21,360 bases of DNA, taken from IMG/VR virus record IMGVR_UViG_3300025418_000393, positions 1 through 21,360 of that record. One strand, given 5' to 3'. Origin of the DNA: a virus. The notes beneath the pieces were generated by a model. The model did not search any database. It was given only the letters and a program-made list of their open reading frames with translations, and was not told the DNA's origin. Positions 5,417 to 18,044 of this stretch are shown piece after piece (position 1 is the first letter of the stretch; every line of letters begins with the position of its first letter). A program made the position numbers and the translations under genes.

Positions 5417-5437
5417 TAACACCCTCAGTTCATTTCG

Positions 5438-5491
5438 ATGGCTGACCGCGAGAACCCTGTCGTACTGGCTTCGATAGCCCGTGCTAATTAG
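5438..5491 (+). other. 17-codon frame overlapping a 13-bp hairpin (5450-5504), attenuator candidate
   Basis: The ATG at 5438 opens a 17-codon frame ending in TAG at 5489-5491. The left arm of a 13-base-pair stem (5450-5462) lies inside it. The right arm (5492-5504, one G-U pair) begins at the base directly after the stop codon. The loop contains a smaller stem (GGCT 5467-5470 / AGCC 5476-5479). The right arm runs into TTTTCT. This resembles a translated leader controlling a hairpin, but there is no ribosome site before the ATG, so it may be only a structured RNA. Confidence 0.3.
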
Positions 5492-5520
5492 CGACAGGGT
5501 TTTCTGCTAGGCTGAACTTA

Positions 5521-5958: not shown

Positions 5959-6197
5959 ATGAAATCCTCGAAGAACGCTTAGATGAGTACGGCGACGCGT
6001 TTATTGAGTTCACTGCTATTGGTCGCGTATGGGCTGGATTCTTAAAACTTGAGGACGATATTCCTGCGTATCAAGTTGCGTTGATGATGGATGCACTTAA
6101 GTCCGTTCGTCTTTTCTACAACCCTTACAAAAATGATTCGTGGCTCGATAAAGAGGGTTACACGAAACACGGTAAAGACATAATGGGGATCGAATGA
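5934..6197 (+). CDS. DUF6378-like small protein
   Basis: This 87-residue protein matches the pattern of DUF6378 phage proteins: a RLDEYGDAFIEFTAIGRVWAGFL segment, a central VALMMDALKSVRLFYNP segment and a C-terminal NDSWLDKEGYTKHG segment. In the family these read roughly as 'RxxxYGDF...', 'ALxMxxLKxxR' and 'DSWxDxxGY'. The family is widespread in phage early regions and has no established biochemical role. The start may be the ATG at 5934 or the one at 5940; both overlap the previous gene and neither has a clear ribosome site. The stop overlaps the next ATG (ATGA). Confidence 0.75.
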   Translation: MQMPRSRVDEILEERLDEYGDAFIEFTAIGRVWAGFLKLEDDIPAYQVALMMDALKSVRLFYNPYKNDSWLDKEGYTKHGKDIMGIE

Positions 6198-7246
6198 GCC
6201 TCAGCGACCGACTAAAAAATATCCCCGAGCCGGAATCGCAAGATGTTAATGAACTTCGCAGAGCCCTTTTAAGATCTCAGAAAACTATTGCTGATCTTAA
6301 AAGAAACAAAGAAGACTTTACGCAAGCCGTAGTTAATGCCGCCCATGATGCGATGTTGTCACATGGGCCGGTTTTGCCCGTTCCAACTCCTATTAAAGAT
6401 TCTCGAAAGAAACGAGGAGAGGTTGCCCTTCTACATTCGACTGACTGGCAATTAGGCAAGCAAACTCTCACATATAACACTAAAGAGTGCGAGCGCCTTG
6501 TAAAGCAATCAGTTGAAAAAACAATCCGGATTGCAGACATTCAGCGAGCAGATCATCCGGTCAAAGAGATTGTCCTCATGCTTGGCGGAGATATTGTTGA
6601 AAATACAACAATCTTCCCTGCGCAAGTTTATGAAGTTGACTCAGACATCATGACTCAATTTGTTGAGGCTTCGCGTATTTTGATCGACATAGTTCGCACA
6701 CTTCTTGCTAATTTTGAGAAAGTTACAGTTATTTGCGAACCGGGCAACCACGGTCGCATTGGAAAGTTTGGCGAATTGCCTAAAGATATTAACTGGGACA
6801 AATTGACTTATATGTTCGCAGGGCAAGCACTTAGAGATGAGAAGCGCCTTACTTGGCAAATGACCAAGGAGGACATTCAGCGCGTGACTATTGGAAACTA
6901 TAAAGCGTTGCTCATTCATGGAGACGAAATCCGTTGGGGAACCGCATCAACAATCGTGCGTTTTGCCGATCGTTGGAAATCCGGCGCGTATAAGTTCTTC
7001 GATGAAGTTGATGAGATCACTAAGGGATTTGATTTTCGCGACCTCTATATCGGTCATTACCATCAGCATCAGTCGTGGAATATGGCCAACGGCGAAGGAT
7101 CTGTGTTTATGTCCGGAGCAGTTGAGACTGGCAACAGATACGCTCGTGATCTTCTTGCCGCAAATGGCGAAGCCTCTCAGCGCTTGCACTTCGTTGATCC
7201 TGAGAAGGGTCGCGTAACTTCCGAATACCGGTTGTGGCTTGAGTAA
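6194..7246 (+). CDS. Calcineurin-like metallophosphoesterase (Mre11/SbcD-like nuclease)
   Basis: This 350-residue protein has the five phosphoesterase blocks in order. They are STDWQLGK (82-89; D84, with Gln in place of the usual His at 86), GGD (131-133), GNHGR (184-188), HGD (242-244) and GHYH (287-290). They bind two metal ions that hydrolyse phosphodiester bonds. The N-terminal 70 residues form a predicted coiled coil (LRRALLRSQKTIADLKRNKE), perhaps for dimerisation or partner binding. Neighbouring recombination genes (Erf-like, Cas4-like, RusA) make a DNA-end-processing nuclease likely. No Rad50/SbcC partner is seen in the window. Gln at the DxH position is shared by other phage members of the family as I recall it. 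Starts and stops overlap both neighbours. Confidence 0.88.
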   Translation: MSLSDRLKNIPEPESQDVNELRRALLRSQKTIADLKRNKEDFTQAVVNAAHDAMLSHGPVLPVPTPIKDSRKKRGEVALLHSTDWQLGKQTLTYNTKECERLVKQSVEKTIRIADIQRADHPVKEIVLMLGGDIVENTTIFPAQVYEVDSDIMTQFVEASRILIDIVRTLLANFEKVTVICEPGNHGRIGKFGELPKDINWDKLTYMFAGQALRDEKRLTWQMTKEDIQRVTIGNYKALLIHGDEIRWGTASTIVRFADRWKSGAYKFFDEVDEITKGFDFRDLYIGHYHQHQSWNMANGEGSVFMSGAVETGNRYARDLLAANGEASQRLHFVDPEKGRVTSEYRLWLE

Positions 7247-7806
7247 TGACTACCCTCGTAGGAATTCAAGGCGACGGCTGGTGCGTATTAGGAGCCGACT
7301 CAAAGGCAAGTGATACAAACGGTGAATTCATTTATGTCCGAGATCCTAAGATTTTCCAAAACGGACCGACTTTTATTGCCGGTTCAGGTGCCGTTCGCGG
7401 ATTGAATATCCTCGAACATGGATGGACTGCGCCTCGATTCCGTGGATCGCCGGAAAGTTATATGACTCGACTCTTCATTCCATCCCTTCGCCGGAAATTA
7501 TTAGACGCCGGATCTGAGTGGAAAAAAGAAGATGAAACAGTCCGCCTCGATAACAATTTGTTAGTTGCCGTCCGAGGGCAGATATTCAAGGTTTCAGATG
7601 ATTATTCGTGGGAAACATCGACAAGCAAACTTTACAGGGCTGGATCCGGCGGAGATTATGCTCTCGGAGCGCTCAAGGCTCTAGGCGCGGAGGATGTGGA
7701 ATTCCCTGAAGTTGCGGCAGTTTTGGTTAGAAAAGCGATCGAAGCGGCCATCCAATGCGACAATTTCTCGGGCGGAAATATAGACATTTTCACCCAATTC
7801 GTCTAA
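7246..7806 (+). CDS. Proteasome beta/HslV-like Ntn-hydrolase
   Basis: This 186-residue protein begins MTTLVGIQGDGWCVLGADSKAS, the start pattern of HslV and mature proteasome beta subunits. Removal of Met1 would expose Thr2 as the catalytic Thr1; Asp18 then falls exactly at position 17. Lys35 in DPKIF lies one residue from the position of catalytic Lys33. Later signatures are RAGSGGDYALGALKALG (131-147, compare GSGGxYAxxAxxAL of HslV) and CDNFSGGNIDIF (171-182), with Asp172 near the conserved Asp166. Length is close to HslV. There is no propeptide, so it resembles HslV more than actinobacterial PrcB. No HslU-type ATPase is seen in the window. Substrate unknown: a phage protease, or a subunit using a host ATPase. 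It overlaps the phosphoesterase gene (TAATG). Confidence 0.85.
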   Translation: MTTLVGIQGDGWCVLGADSKASDTNGEFIYVRDPKIFQNGPTFIAGSGAVRGLNILEHGWTAPRFRGSPESYMTRLFIPSLRRKLLDAGSEWKKEDETVRLDNNLLVAVRGQIFKVSDDYSWETSTSKLYRAGSGGDYALGALKALGAEDVEFPEVAAVLVRKAIEAAIQCDNFSGGNIDIFTQFV

Positions 7807-8006
7807 TCCTCTTCGGCGGATGATTCATCCCCGAGGTCGATAAAATTGACTTGTGTGATGTCTAGATCCTGATTTTTGGCCGCCATAAGCCCCGTTACAA
7901 AGAGTGTAGAGGCGCGGTTAACAATATCGTCGATCTGATCGGGATACTTCAATTCAGCCTCAACCATGACGGCAAGGCTCCACAGGGAGATTTGGACTCG
8001 GATCAT
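7803..8006 (-). CDS. Hypothetical protein, the only leftward gene
   Basis: This 67-residue frame has a good ribosome site (GAGGA about 10 bases before its ATG at 8004-8006). Its codon choice resembles that of the neighbours. The protein opens MIRVQISLWSLAVMVEAEL, continues with helical sequence (DQIDDIVNRASTLFVTGLMAAK), and has an acidic end DLGDESSAEED. No family recognised. Its TAG overlaps the stop of the peptidase gene by two bases, so the two genes converge. Leftward transcription would run antisense into the peptidase gene. Between 8007 and 8140 it shares a divergent region with the 8141 gene. Confidence 0.65.
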   Translation of the reverse strand: MIRVQISLWSLAVMVEAELKYPDQIDDIVNRASTLFVTGLMAAKNQDLDITQVNFIDLGDESSAEED

Positions 8007-10169: not shown

Positions 10170-10825
10170 GCGATATTAAGAAAATGTTGGTTGGAGCGCT
10201 GGCCGGACATGATGCTCAGCGCGACAGATCTTTACAAATCGACATCGGTCCGTCAGCCGTTGGCGATTGTAAGCGGCGCGTGTTTATGAATATCACGCAG
10301 GCCCCGAAGGTAAATCCAACGGATAAATTACCCGCGATACTCGGGACATTTATTCACGCCGGAATTGCCGAAGCGATCAAGCGAGAAGATCCGTTCGGGG
10401 ATAACTTTATGATCGAGCAGGAGTTCGCAATCGAAGGGTTGCGGGGCCATGTCGATCTCTACATTAAAGATAAACAACAGATCGTGGACTGGAAAACAAC
10501 AAAGAAAAAGTCCCTTCGCTACTTTCCTTCGCTCCAACAAAGGATGCAGGTTCAACTTTATGGCTATCTTGTAAGTGAGAATGGCTATCCGGTAGAAACA
10601 GTCACCCTTGTAGCAGTGGCGCGTGATGGCGAATCCGAAGATGTTCGAGAACACACCGAGCCTTATGATCCCGAGATGGCTCAGCAAGGCTTGGCGTGGA
10701 TTGCCAATCTTCAAGAAATGGCGGCGAACGGCGAAGTTCCGGAACCTGAAAAAGATGTTTATTTTTGCCGCTCTTATTGTGATTATTACGATGCGACAGG
10801 AGTAAACGGTTGCTCATCAAAATAA
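10166..10825 (+). CDS. Cas4/RecB-like PD-(D/E)XK nuclease with Fe-S-type cysteines
   Basis: This 219-residue protein has the RecB-family nuclease core. H64 is in GTFIHAGIAEA, D97 in GHVDLYI, D108 and K110 in IVDWKTTKK, and a QxxxY motif (Q128-Y132) follows. One cysteine near the N-terminus (C35) and three at the C-terminus (C201, C205, C216) form the Cas4/AddB arrangement that holds an iron-sulfur cluster. It probably degrades or trims DNA ends for the annealing protein encoded nearby. No cas1/cas2 genes or CRISPR repeats are seen, so it is a recombination exonuclease rather than a CRISPR gene. GTG start, overlapping the previous TGA. Confidence 0.85.
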   Translation: MSDIKKMLVGALAGHDAQRDRSLQIDIGPSAVGDCKRRVFMNITQAPKVNPTDKLPAILGTFIHAGIAEAIKREDPFGDNFMIEQEFAIEGLRGHVDLYIKDKQQIVDWKTTKKKSLRYFPSLQQRMQVQLYGYLVSENGYPVETVTLVAVARDGESEDVREHTEPYDPEMAQQGLAWIANLQEMAANGEVPEPEKDVYFCRSYCDYYDATGVNGCSSK

Positions 10826-11292
10826 CAATCTCCGAAGCGGTCAGCCGATACGGAGTCACGCAACGGACAATTCACAGGTGGATTAAAAAGTACGAGATCC
10901 ACCAATTTGCGGACGGAACTTATGATCGCGATCAACTTGATGCCCTTGTTGATAATTATGAAAATCCGACCTACATGGATGTCGATTGGGATCGAGCCGC
11001 TTGCAAGGATTTGCCGACAAACTTTTTCTACAAGATCGAGGATCGAGGCGTATCAAAGTTGATCGACATAGATGTTTTCCGCTTCACCTGCGCTCCTTGC
11101 CCAATTTGGAGTCAATGCTTAAAGTACGCCACCAATCAAGAACAATACGGAGTTTGGGGCGGAATGACTAACGACGAAAGGCAATCTCTATTGAGCCACA
11201 ACAAATCATCGGTTCGCGACAAAGTCATAAAAGATTTTGAGCGATACGGGATAACTAAACAAATGATTATGCAGTCAGTCGGGAGGGAGTAA
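10810..11292 (+). CDS. HTH-WhiB fusion transcription factor
   Basis: This 160-residue protein joins two domains. Residues 3-45 form a MerR/excisionase-like helix-turn-helix (ITISEAVSRYGVTQRTIHRWIKKY). Residues 58-125 form a WhiB domain with C65, C94, C97 and C103 (C-x28-C-x2-C-x5-C) and the GVWGG turn at 114-118. WhiB proteins bind a 4Fe-4S cluster and act with the main sigma factor in actinobacteria. The start is TTG, supported by GGAG at 10799-10802; the gene overlaps the nuclease gene by 16 bases. WhiB genes in phages are usually single-domain, so the added DNA-binding domain is notable. It may control the phage promoters at 8073 and 12694. Confidence 0.88.
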   Translation: MLIKITISEAVSRYGVTQRTIHRWIKKYEIHQFADGTYDRDQLDALVDNYENPTYMDVDWDRAACKDLPTNFFYKIEDRGVSKLIDIDVFRFTCAPCPIWSQCLKYATNQEQYGVWGGMTNDERQSLLSHNKSSVRDKVIKDFERYGITKQMIMQSVGRE

Positions 11293-16493: not shown

Positions 16494-16727
16494 ATGATCC
16501 CCATGATTATCGACAAGGAAGTGATCACGCTCGCCGATATAGACGAAGCGATCGCCCATCTTGCCGTTATGCTCAAGGATCGGTACGGAAATAGGCTCAC
16601 CCATCAGCGGAAGGCGTTCCTGATGGGCGAGATGGATTCATTACTTGACGCTAGATTAGAGGCAGTAAATAATGGAATTGGAAACGGTAGCAATCGGGGG
16701 CCTGACTCTCGATCCACAGAACGCTAG
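16494..16727 (+). CDS. Small hypothetical protein
   Basis: This 77-residue protein starts one base after the previous stop. It is helical (LADIDEAIAHLAVMLKDRYGNRLTHQRKAF, then EMDSLLDARLEAVNN). The last 18 residues (from GIGNGSN onward) lie in the overlap with the ParB-like gene and look unstructured. No family recognised. Confidence 0.65.
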   Translation: MIPMIIDKEVITLADIDEAIAHLAVMLKDRYGNRLTHQRKAFLMGEMDSLLDARLEAVNNGIGNGSNRGPDSRSTER

Positions 16728-17271
16728 GAAACATTCGAGCCGTAATCTTGCCGCGATTAAGGCCAGCCTCGAAAAGTTTGGCCAGCGCAAACCTCTCGTT
16801 GTTCATAATGGCGTAGTAATTGCTGGCAACGGAACGCTTGAAGCCGCTCGATCTCTCGGATGGAAAGAGATCGCAGTAAGCGTATGTCCTGATGATTGGG
16901 ATTCCGAGACCGCCAAGGCTTATGCGCTCGCAGATAATCGCTCCGCTGAATTAGCCGAATGGGATGAGATCGCGCTATCTAACCAACTTGTTGATCTTGA
17001 GGATCTTGGTTGGGATATTGAAGGCCTAGGATTTGAGAAGGTCGCTAAAGCCTCCGCCGATGACTGGTCAGATGCGTTTGATAAGACCACTAAAGAGCAG
17101 TCGCCATTTCAGCAAGTCACTTTTACCCTGAGCCATGAGCAAGTCGAAATCGTGAACAACGCGATTTCTGCCTCCCTTGCGTTGGGCGAATTCCCTGATG
17201 AGGAAAATACGAACAAGAATGGCAACGCCTTGACTCGGATGGCTGAGATATTCCTAGGGACTCAGGTATGA
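16672..17271 (+). CDS. ParB-like nuclease-domain protein
   Basis: This 199-residue protein has an N-terminal ParB/Srx-type domain: LDPQNARKHSSRNLAAIKASL, then GQRKPLVVHNGVVIAGNGTLEA (37-58) and YALADNRSAELAEWD. In phages this domain is often next to DNA methyltransferase or Mom-type genes, sometimes labelled nuclease. The C-terminal 70 residues (FQQVTFTLSHEQVEIVNNAIS ... ALTRMAEIFLG) are a separate helical part. Its stop overlaps the Mom-like gene (ATGA), so the two are expressed together and probably work together in DNA modification or its targeting. Confidence 0.85.
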   Translation: MELETVAIGGLTLDPQNARKHSSRNLAAIKASLEKFGQRKPLVVHNGVVIAGNGTLEAARSLGWKEIAVSVCPDDWDSETAKAYALADNRSAELAEWDEIALSNQLVDLEDLGWDIEGLGFEKVAKASADDWSDAFDKTTKEQSPFQQVTFTLSHEQVEIVNNAISASLALGEFPDEENTNKNGNALTRMAEIFLGTQV

Positions 17272-18044
17272 GCGCGAAAGACATAATCTTAAAGCCGATC
17301 ACCTCCGCTGAGGCCAATGCCTTAGTCCGGAAGATTCATTACAGTAAAAAGGTCGCGCCAAACTCCCAAATCCACATCGGCGTTTTCTATAACGGGAAAT
17401 TAGAGGGAGCGCTTCAATTTGGCCCGTCTATGGATAAGCGCAAGACTCAGGGGCTCGTCAAAGATACCCCGTGGAACGGCTTCATCGAATTAAACCGGAT
17501 GGCCTTTAGCGATGCCCTGCCTAAGAACAGTGAGTCCCGCGCAATAGGCGTAGCGCTTAAGATGCTCAAGAAGCACGCTCCCCATTTGCAGTGGGTAATC
17601 TCTTTCGCCGATGGCACTCAGTGCGGAGATGGAACGATCTACCGCGCCTCAGGCTTCGTGCTGACTCAGATTAACAAGAACAAGACTATTTGGAGACTGC
17701 CTGACGGCGAATATGCCGCAGACATTAACTTCACCACAGGGGTTTCATCAGAGTTGCAGAAAAAGTGGGGCAAGGTTGGCACTGAGTCAAGCCATAAGTT
17801 CCTCAACAGTATTGGCGCACAGAAGGCTGAGGGATTCCAACTGAGGTATGTCTATTTCCTCGATCCTGCGGCTAAAGAGCGCCTCACAGTTCCTATCTTG
17901 CCGTTCTCTGAGATCGACAAGGCAGGTGCTAGGATGTACAAAGGTTCACGCCCTGAAAGCATAAACAGCGATGCGTCTAACTTCCTGTTAGAAGATAGCG
18001 GTGCAATTCCGACTTCAGGGCTCCAACCTAACGAAGAATCGTAA
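17268..18044 (+). CDS. Mom-like DNA adenine modification protein (GNAT fold)
   Basis: This 258-residue protein resembles phage Mom proteins. Markers are LVRKIHYSKKVAPNSQIHIGVFYNG, LEGALQFGPSMDKRKTQ, the block WNGFIELNRMAFSD followed by NSESRAIGVALKMLKKH, and FADGTQCGDGTIYRASGF (113-130). Phage Mu Mom has an acetyltransferase-like fold and converts adenine to N6-carbamoylmethyl-adenine, protecting DNA from host restriction. Actinophage homologues sit beside ParB-like genes, as here. The C-terminal 50 residues (from about 205) are an extension of unknown function. The position just upstream of terminase fits modification shortly before packaging. The chemical product cannot be known from sequence. 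Confidence 0.82.
   Translation: MSAKDIILKPITSAEANALVRKIHYSKKVAPNSQIHIGVFYNGKLEGALQFGPSMDKRKTQGLVKDTPWNGFIELNRMAFSDALPKNSESRAIGVALKMLKKHAPHLQWVISFADGTQCGDGTIYRASGFVLTQINKNKTIWRLPDGEYAADINFTTGVSSELQKKWGKVGTESSHKFLNSIGAQKAEGFQLRYVYFLDPAAKERLTVPILPFSEIDKAGARMYKGSRPESINSDASNFLLEDSGAIPTSGLQPNEES

Follow-up and report, generated by a model that had tools for sequence, protein, structure and literature searches.

A proteasome-fold peptidase of phages that belongs to a separate clade and may act as an ATP-independent barrel early in infection

Why a phage should carry a peptidase of the proteasome type, and what that peptidase might act on, are questions raised by a gene in IMG/VR virus record IMGVR_UViG_3300025418_000393. 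The window analyzed here is the whole stretch of 21,360 nt from that record (positions 1 to 21,360), and its relevant features are collected in Table 1. An initial annotation, made from the letters of the sequence, described the gene product as an HslV-like or proteasome-like peptidase that could degrade host or restriction proteins or take over a host unfoldase. A phage-borne proteasome homologue is not new in kind, since two groups of them, PPH and AAH, are already published (PMC8665760). However, a search of the literature for functional studies of phage proteasome homologues found none.

Table 1. Positions of the features discussed in the text, with the evidence for each
Feature	Position	Strand	Evidence
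Proteasome-fold (group I, BPH-like) N-terminal-nucleophile peptidase, 186 aa	7246..7806	+	PF00227, phrog_1040, AlphaFold, Foldseek, dN/dS
Thr2 codon (mature Thr1), predicted nucleophile, exposed once Met1 is removed	7249..7251	+	Thr in 84/88, Ser in 4/88 distinct relatives
Asp18 codon (Asp17 equivalent)	7297..7299	+	Asp in 83/88, Glu in 5/88
Lys35 codon (Lys33 equivalent)	7348..7350	+	invariant, 88/88
Pore-loop region, residues 89-102, elongated and acidic as in BPH	7510..7551	+	alignment with BPH and HslV
Ser134 codon (Ser129 equivalent, GSGG motif)	7645..7647	+	Ser in 85/88, Thr in 3/88
Asp172 codon (Asp166 equivalent, DNFSGG)	7759..7761	+	invariant, 88/88
Mre11/SbcD-like exonuclease, upstream; stop overlaps peptidase start (TAATG)	6194..7246	+	phrog_284, E=3.9e-43
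Convergent 67-aa gene, overlaps peptidase stop by 4 bases; a neighbour, membership unproven	7803..8006	-	adjoins peptidase in 12 contigs
WhiB-like regulator, marker of an actinobacterial host	10810..11292	+	phrog_472, E=5.6e-15

The reading frame has exactly the limits first assigned to it, from an ATG at 7246-7248 to a stop codon at 7804-7806 on the + strand, and its 186-residue product does begin with Met-Thr-Thr. This protein matches the Pfam proteasome family (PF00227; E=1.7e-7, 31.5 bits against a gathering cut-off of 22.4) and phrog_1040, 'peptidase HslV family' (E=2.9e-24), a label that is an annotation only and among whose members none with a tested function was found. An AlphaFold model based on 38 natural relatives has high confidence (mean pLDDT 91.7, pTM 0.88), and its strands and helices follow one another as in the proteasome fold, with helices 50-58 and 69-88 both present; confidence is lowest in the pore loop (pLDDT 61, residues 91-100). 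In a Foldseek search of the PDB, BPH is on top (5ovs, TM 0.79), HslV is next (TM 0.64-0.67) and proteasome beta chains are close behind. There are 1167 PDB chains that match at E<=0.001, and the best 50 of these 1167 are all BPH, HslV or proteasome. The top solved structure by sequence search is also a BPH (5ovu, E=8e-6), and among viral structures the highest-ranking match (TM 0.95) is an uncultured phage's protein that bears the name HslV. The two family matches, together with the confident BPH/HslV/proteasome-like fold, put the identity of the peptidase far beyond chance. The four-layer Ntn fold, which the initial annotation had set beforehand as a test of its proposal, is thus what the model and its structural matches predict, and the assignment of fold and active site to a proteasome-type Ntn peptidase is computationally well supported.

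The catalytic residues expected at positions 17, 33 and 166 are found, by alignment, as Asp18, Lys35 and Asp172. Counted from mature Thr1, these are residues 17, 34 (aligned with Lys33) and 171 (aligned with Asp166), respectively; Ser134 pairs with Ser129. In viral contigs, 88 distinct relatives bear out the predicted conservation of Thr, Asp and Lys, the sole exchange of note being Glu for the Asp17 equivalent, and the equivalents of Gly47 and of the residue next to the nucleophile (Thr2 when counted from mature Thr1) are also kept (88/88 each). Glu occurs at residue 18 in loci L008, L079, L080, L085 and L148, all of which retain the other catalytic residues. The ATG of the peptidase gene overlaps the upstream stop codon (TAATG) and Thr follows Met directly, so that, as the annotation had proposed, there is no propeptide and Thr would be residue 1. 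Close relatives of the window peptidase yield dN/dS of ~0.05, with a range of 0.05-0.13 where dS is computable, dS being saturated in several pairs; values this low indicate strong purifying selection at the protein level. Computation supports both of these features well.

HslV is not the appropriate family name. The score of the peptidase is far below the curated HslV cut-offs, at 25.8 bits for TIGR03692 (cut-off 157.75) and 25.7 for NF003964 (cut-off 137), and the protein lies on a separate branch. HslV (ClpQ) and the peptidase have the fold and the catalytic residues in common, but the peptidase has its own pore loop, and no HslU was found encoded in the phage relatives searched. BPH is a double ring that has no propeptide and no known partner unfoldase, and a long acidic pore loop is its distinguishing mark (PMC5777263). 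The peptidase resembles BPH (PDB 5ovs and 5ovu; TM 0.73-0.79) in lacking a propeptide, in its complete Thr/Asp/Lys/Ser/Asp site and in the elongated acidic loop that follows helix 2. That loop is absent from HslV, whose alignment is uncertain in this stretch, and alignment with BPH and HslV indicates that an HslV-like basic cluster is missing from the peptidase. However, the peptidase is encoded by phages, its identity to BPH is ~22-24%, and BPH sequences fall outside its branch in both trees, each of which is rooted on HslV as the outside branch. BPH was also inactive in the assays tried (PMC5777263), and activity of the phage peptidase is therefore not assured.

It may be that the phage barrel docks on an unfoldase ring of the host, such as Mpa/ARC, ClpC or ClpX, and redirects protein turnover, given that the nearest studied relative other than BPH is HslV, which depends on HslU, and that the phage appears to encode no unfoldase of its own. 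The domain AAA_2 is found in both HslU and ClpX. It has no match over the cut-off in any of 13 records searched, and neither AAA_2 nor AAA is matched in G001, a near-complete 35.6-kb relative of the window, for which the lack of an encoded unfoldase is well supported by computation. Outside G001, AAA hits are either short ATPases of ~260 aa that look RecA/DnaB-like or, in the cases inspected, distant AAA_5/MoxR-like or plain AAA proteins. A phage-encoded AAA+ partner was rejected on these grounds, and the earlier statement that none is seen in the window holds.

As for the host, WhiB genes mark actinobacteria (PMC6802176), and WhiB-like genes are present in 23 of 106 loci in a motif scan of partial flanks. 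With one such gene in the window, an actinobacterial host is well supported there, but only partly so for the clade. The named control genomes include a single actinobacterium, Corynebacterium glutamicum, which has no HslV match, and Table 1 of PMC8665760 gives no HslV for Actinobacteria; a host HslU is therefore unlikely. Take-over of HslU, a partner that the initial annotation named for modelling, is not supported in view of these results and of the BPH-like pore loop. Docking on a host ring of any kind is weakened further by the missing basic cluster and by the report of Fuchs et al. that no new homologue has a co-occurring AAA+ partner (PMC8665760), and it is considered unlikely, if still the most plausible of the alternatives weighed here.

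Both phages and bacteria carry the group I proteasome homologues AAH and PPH (Fuchs, Alva, Lupas 2021; PMC8665760). PPH proteins have about 140 aa and lack helix H2 (PMC8665760); membership in this group is excluded for the peptidase, with its 186 aa and its helix H2. Like the peptidase, AAH and PPH belong to group I and are carried by Caudoviricetes without an AAA+ partner, and they are likely its sister branch. Relatives are also found on plasmids of Rhizobium, Sinorhizobium, Mesorhizobium, Paraburkholderia and Streptomyces, and, judged by taxonomy, these are presumably AAH. Where the plasmid homologues of loci L188-L193 (rhizobial, Paraburkholderia and Streptomyces) are annotated, they are called only 'hypothetical protein'. 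The presumed AAH plasmid proteins and the homologues of large phages form one clade (99/92), which is sister to the clade of the window peptidase (94/88). The latter includes proteins from DSL-LC01, Microbacterium phage Pumpernickel (a distant relative), ct2KA10 and a gammaproteobacterial MAG, three of which are on long branches and unsure in their exact placement, and the 14 closest viral sequences make up a single group (100/100). Whereas the window's clade keeps both the Ser129 and the Asp166 equivalents, most of the presumed AAH plasmid members carry Cys in place of Ser129 and are without an Asp166 equivalent.

Among GenBank phages, the top match is an HslV-annotated subunit of DSL-LC01 (OQ999401), an actinophage from lake water, with 33.5% identity over 99%. 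It differs from the window peptidase in its length (229 aa), a basic C-terminal extension and its gene neighbourhood. A near-identity DNA search of GenBank phages returned no match, and neither did a search of a defence-system library. As judged from these sequence comparisons, the peptidase belongs to a separate, supported clade within a kind of phage gene that had been described before. No AAH had been found in phages of Actinobacteria as of 2021 (PMC8665760), and the window peptidase bears on this gap, no AAH-carrying actinobacterial phage being known at that time.

At least 572 relatives are confirmed in viral contigs. The genes that flank them fall into several unrelated sets in the 105 loci fetched: the peptidase gene is directly behind a portal gene in 39 contigs and behind an Mre11-like exonuclease, as in the window, in 14. 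The flanking genes named in the initial annotation are right in part. The Mre11-like nuclease is indeed upstream, but a recombination gene does not come next; the position is occupied by the convergent minus-strand gene, in which change is mostly synonymous and for which no family match was found. Between the window and locus L010, dN is 0.44 for the Mre11-like neighbour (6194-7246 against L010:4334-5368) and 0.11 for the peptidase.

The portal-adjacent contigs invite a different explanation, in which the peptidase serves in the virion or in head assembly by trimming scaffold or internal virion proteins. The order in this set is terminase, portal, peptidase, phrog_8200, a 1680-aa protein, two more proteins, a scaffold-like protein and capsid, which places the peptidase behind the portal and before the genes for scaffold and major capsid protein, where a head protease is usually encoded. 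In the window, however, the gene has early-type neighbours and is distant from the head module, as first described, and G001 has a separate HK97-type candidate of 694 aa (phrog_80, E=1.5e-8), so that the window peptidase need not be the head protease. In Streptomyces phages of the Beephvirinae type (Manuel, Dennebes and Abafar), the same portal-scaffold-capsid order occurs with no proteasome homologue annotated there, and none of the three is matched by the peptidase query among GenBank phages. The gene is thus an accessory in the portal module and dispensable for that type of head. For the window phage, a head-maturation protease was rejected on these three counts, and for the peptidase generally such a role appears quite improbable. 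Expression is likely to be late in the 39 portal-adjacent contigs, and it is not certain that the clade as a whole has one early role. The portal and capsid genes of loci L087, L089, L090, L092 and L029, all portal-adjacent, resemble those of Streptomyces Beephvirinae, in which the peptidase is absent.

The reading preferred here, to which a probability of roughly one half (about 0.52) is assigned, is that the phage makes the peptidase early in infection as a BPH-like threonine-peptidase barrel that needs no ATP and is directed at host or defence proteins. Host methionine aminopeptidase would remove Met1 and leave a free N-terminal Thr, which would serve as the nucleophile with help from the Asp17, Lys33, Ser129 and Asp166 equivalents; with no propeptide, no self-cleavage would be needed. 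Subunits most likely stack as a closed two-ring barrel with the active sites inside, as in BPH. The long acidic pore loop could stand in for an ATPase gate, and small, unfolded or specifically recognized proteins might then enter without ATP. Because the peptidase is probably translated together with the exonuclease where the early region begins, we infer that its targets are most likely host or host-defence polypeptides early in infection and not the capsid.

Two further roles were weighed against such a barrel. The fold class includes connectase, a monomeric ligase (PMC8665760), and a QGDGW motif is conserved in nearly all relatives of the peptidase and is missing from the aligned HslV and BPH sequences; both points are consistent with a specific hydrolase or ligase that acts on one host or phage protein. 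However, the peptidase lacks a connectase-type insertion between strands 3 and 4, and its closest solved folds are barrel peptidases, so that a single-substrate enzyme is rather improbable. A recycling peptidase, supplying amino acids for virion synthesis, could explain why the gene occurs in unlike phages at positions that have nothing in common, which would suit a general helper gene. Bacterial hosts already own many peptidases, however, and this is the least probable of the roles considered.

A broader form of the preferred reading, held only tentatively, is that the clade represents a large, separate set of actinophage proteasomes, free-standing ATP-independent barrels that remove specific regulatory or defence proteins of the host. 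If so, this would be a proteasome-based system of host take-over that has not yet been described. The members of the clade are abundant and small, with a full canonical active site and neither a propeptide nor an unfoldase, and these traits make them a simple system in which to ask what purpose proteasomes serve in phages and whether a group I barrel can function with no ATPase.

Elsewhere in the window, a ParB-like gene is followed by one for a Mom-like DNA modification protein (16672-18044; phrog_1384, E=1.7e-51), and the two are possibly an anti-restriction pair. An intergenic, long-loop inverted repeat (aaccctgtcg ... cgacagggtt) lies at ~5430-5520, between the lysis and early genes, and could be a terminator or a structured RNA.
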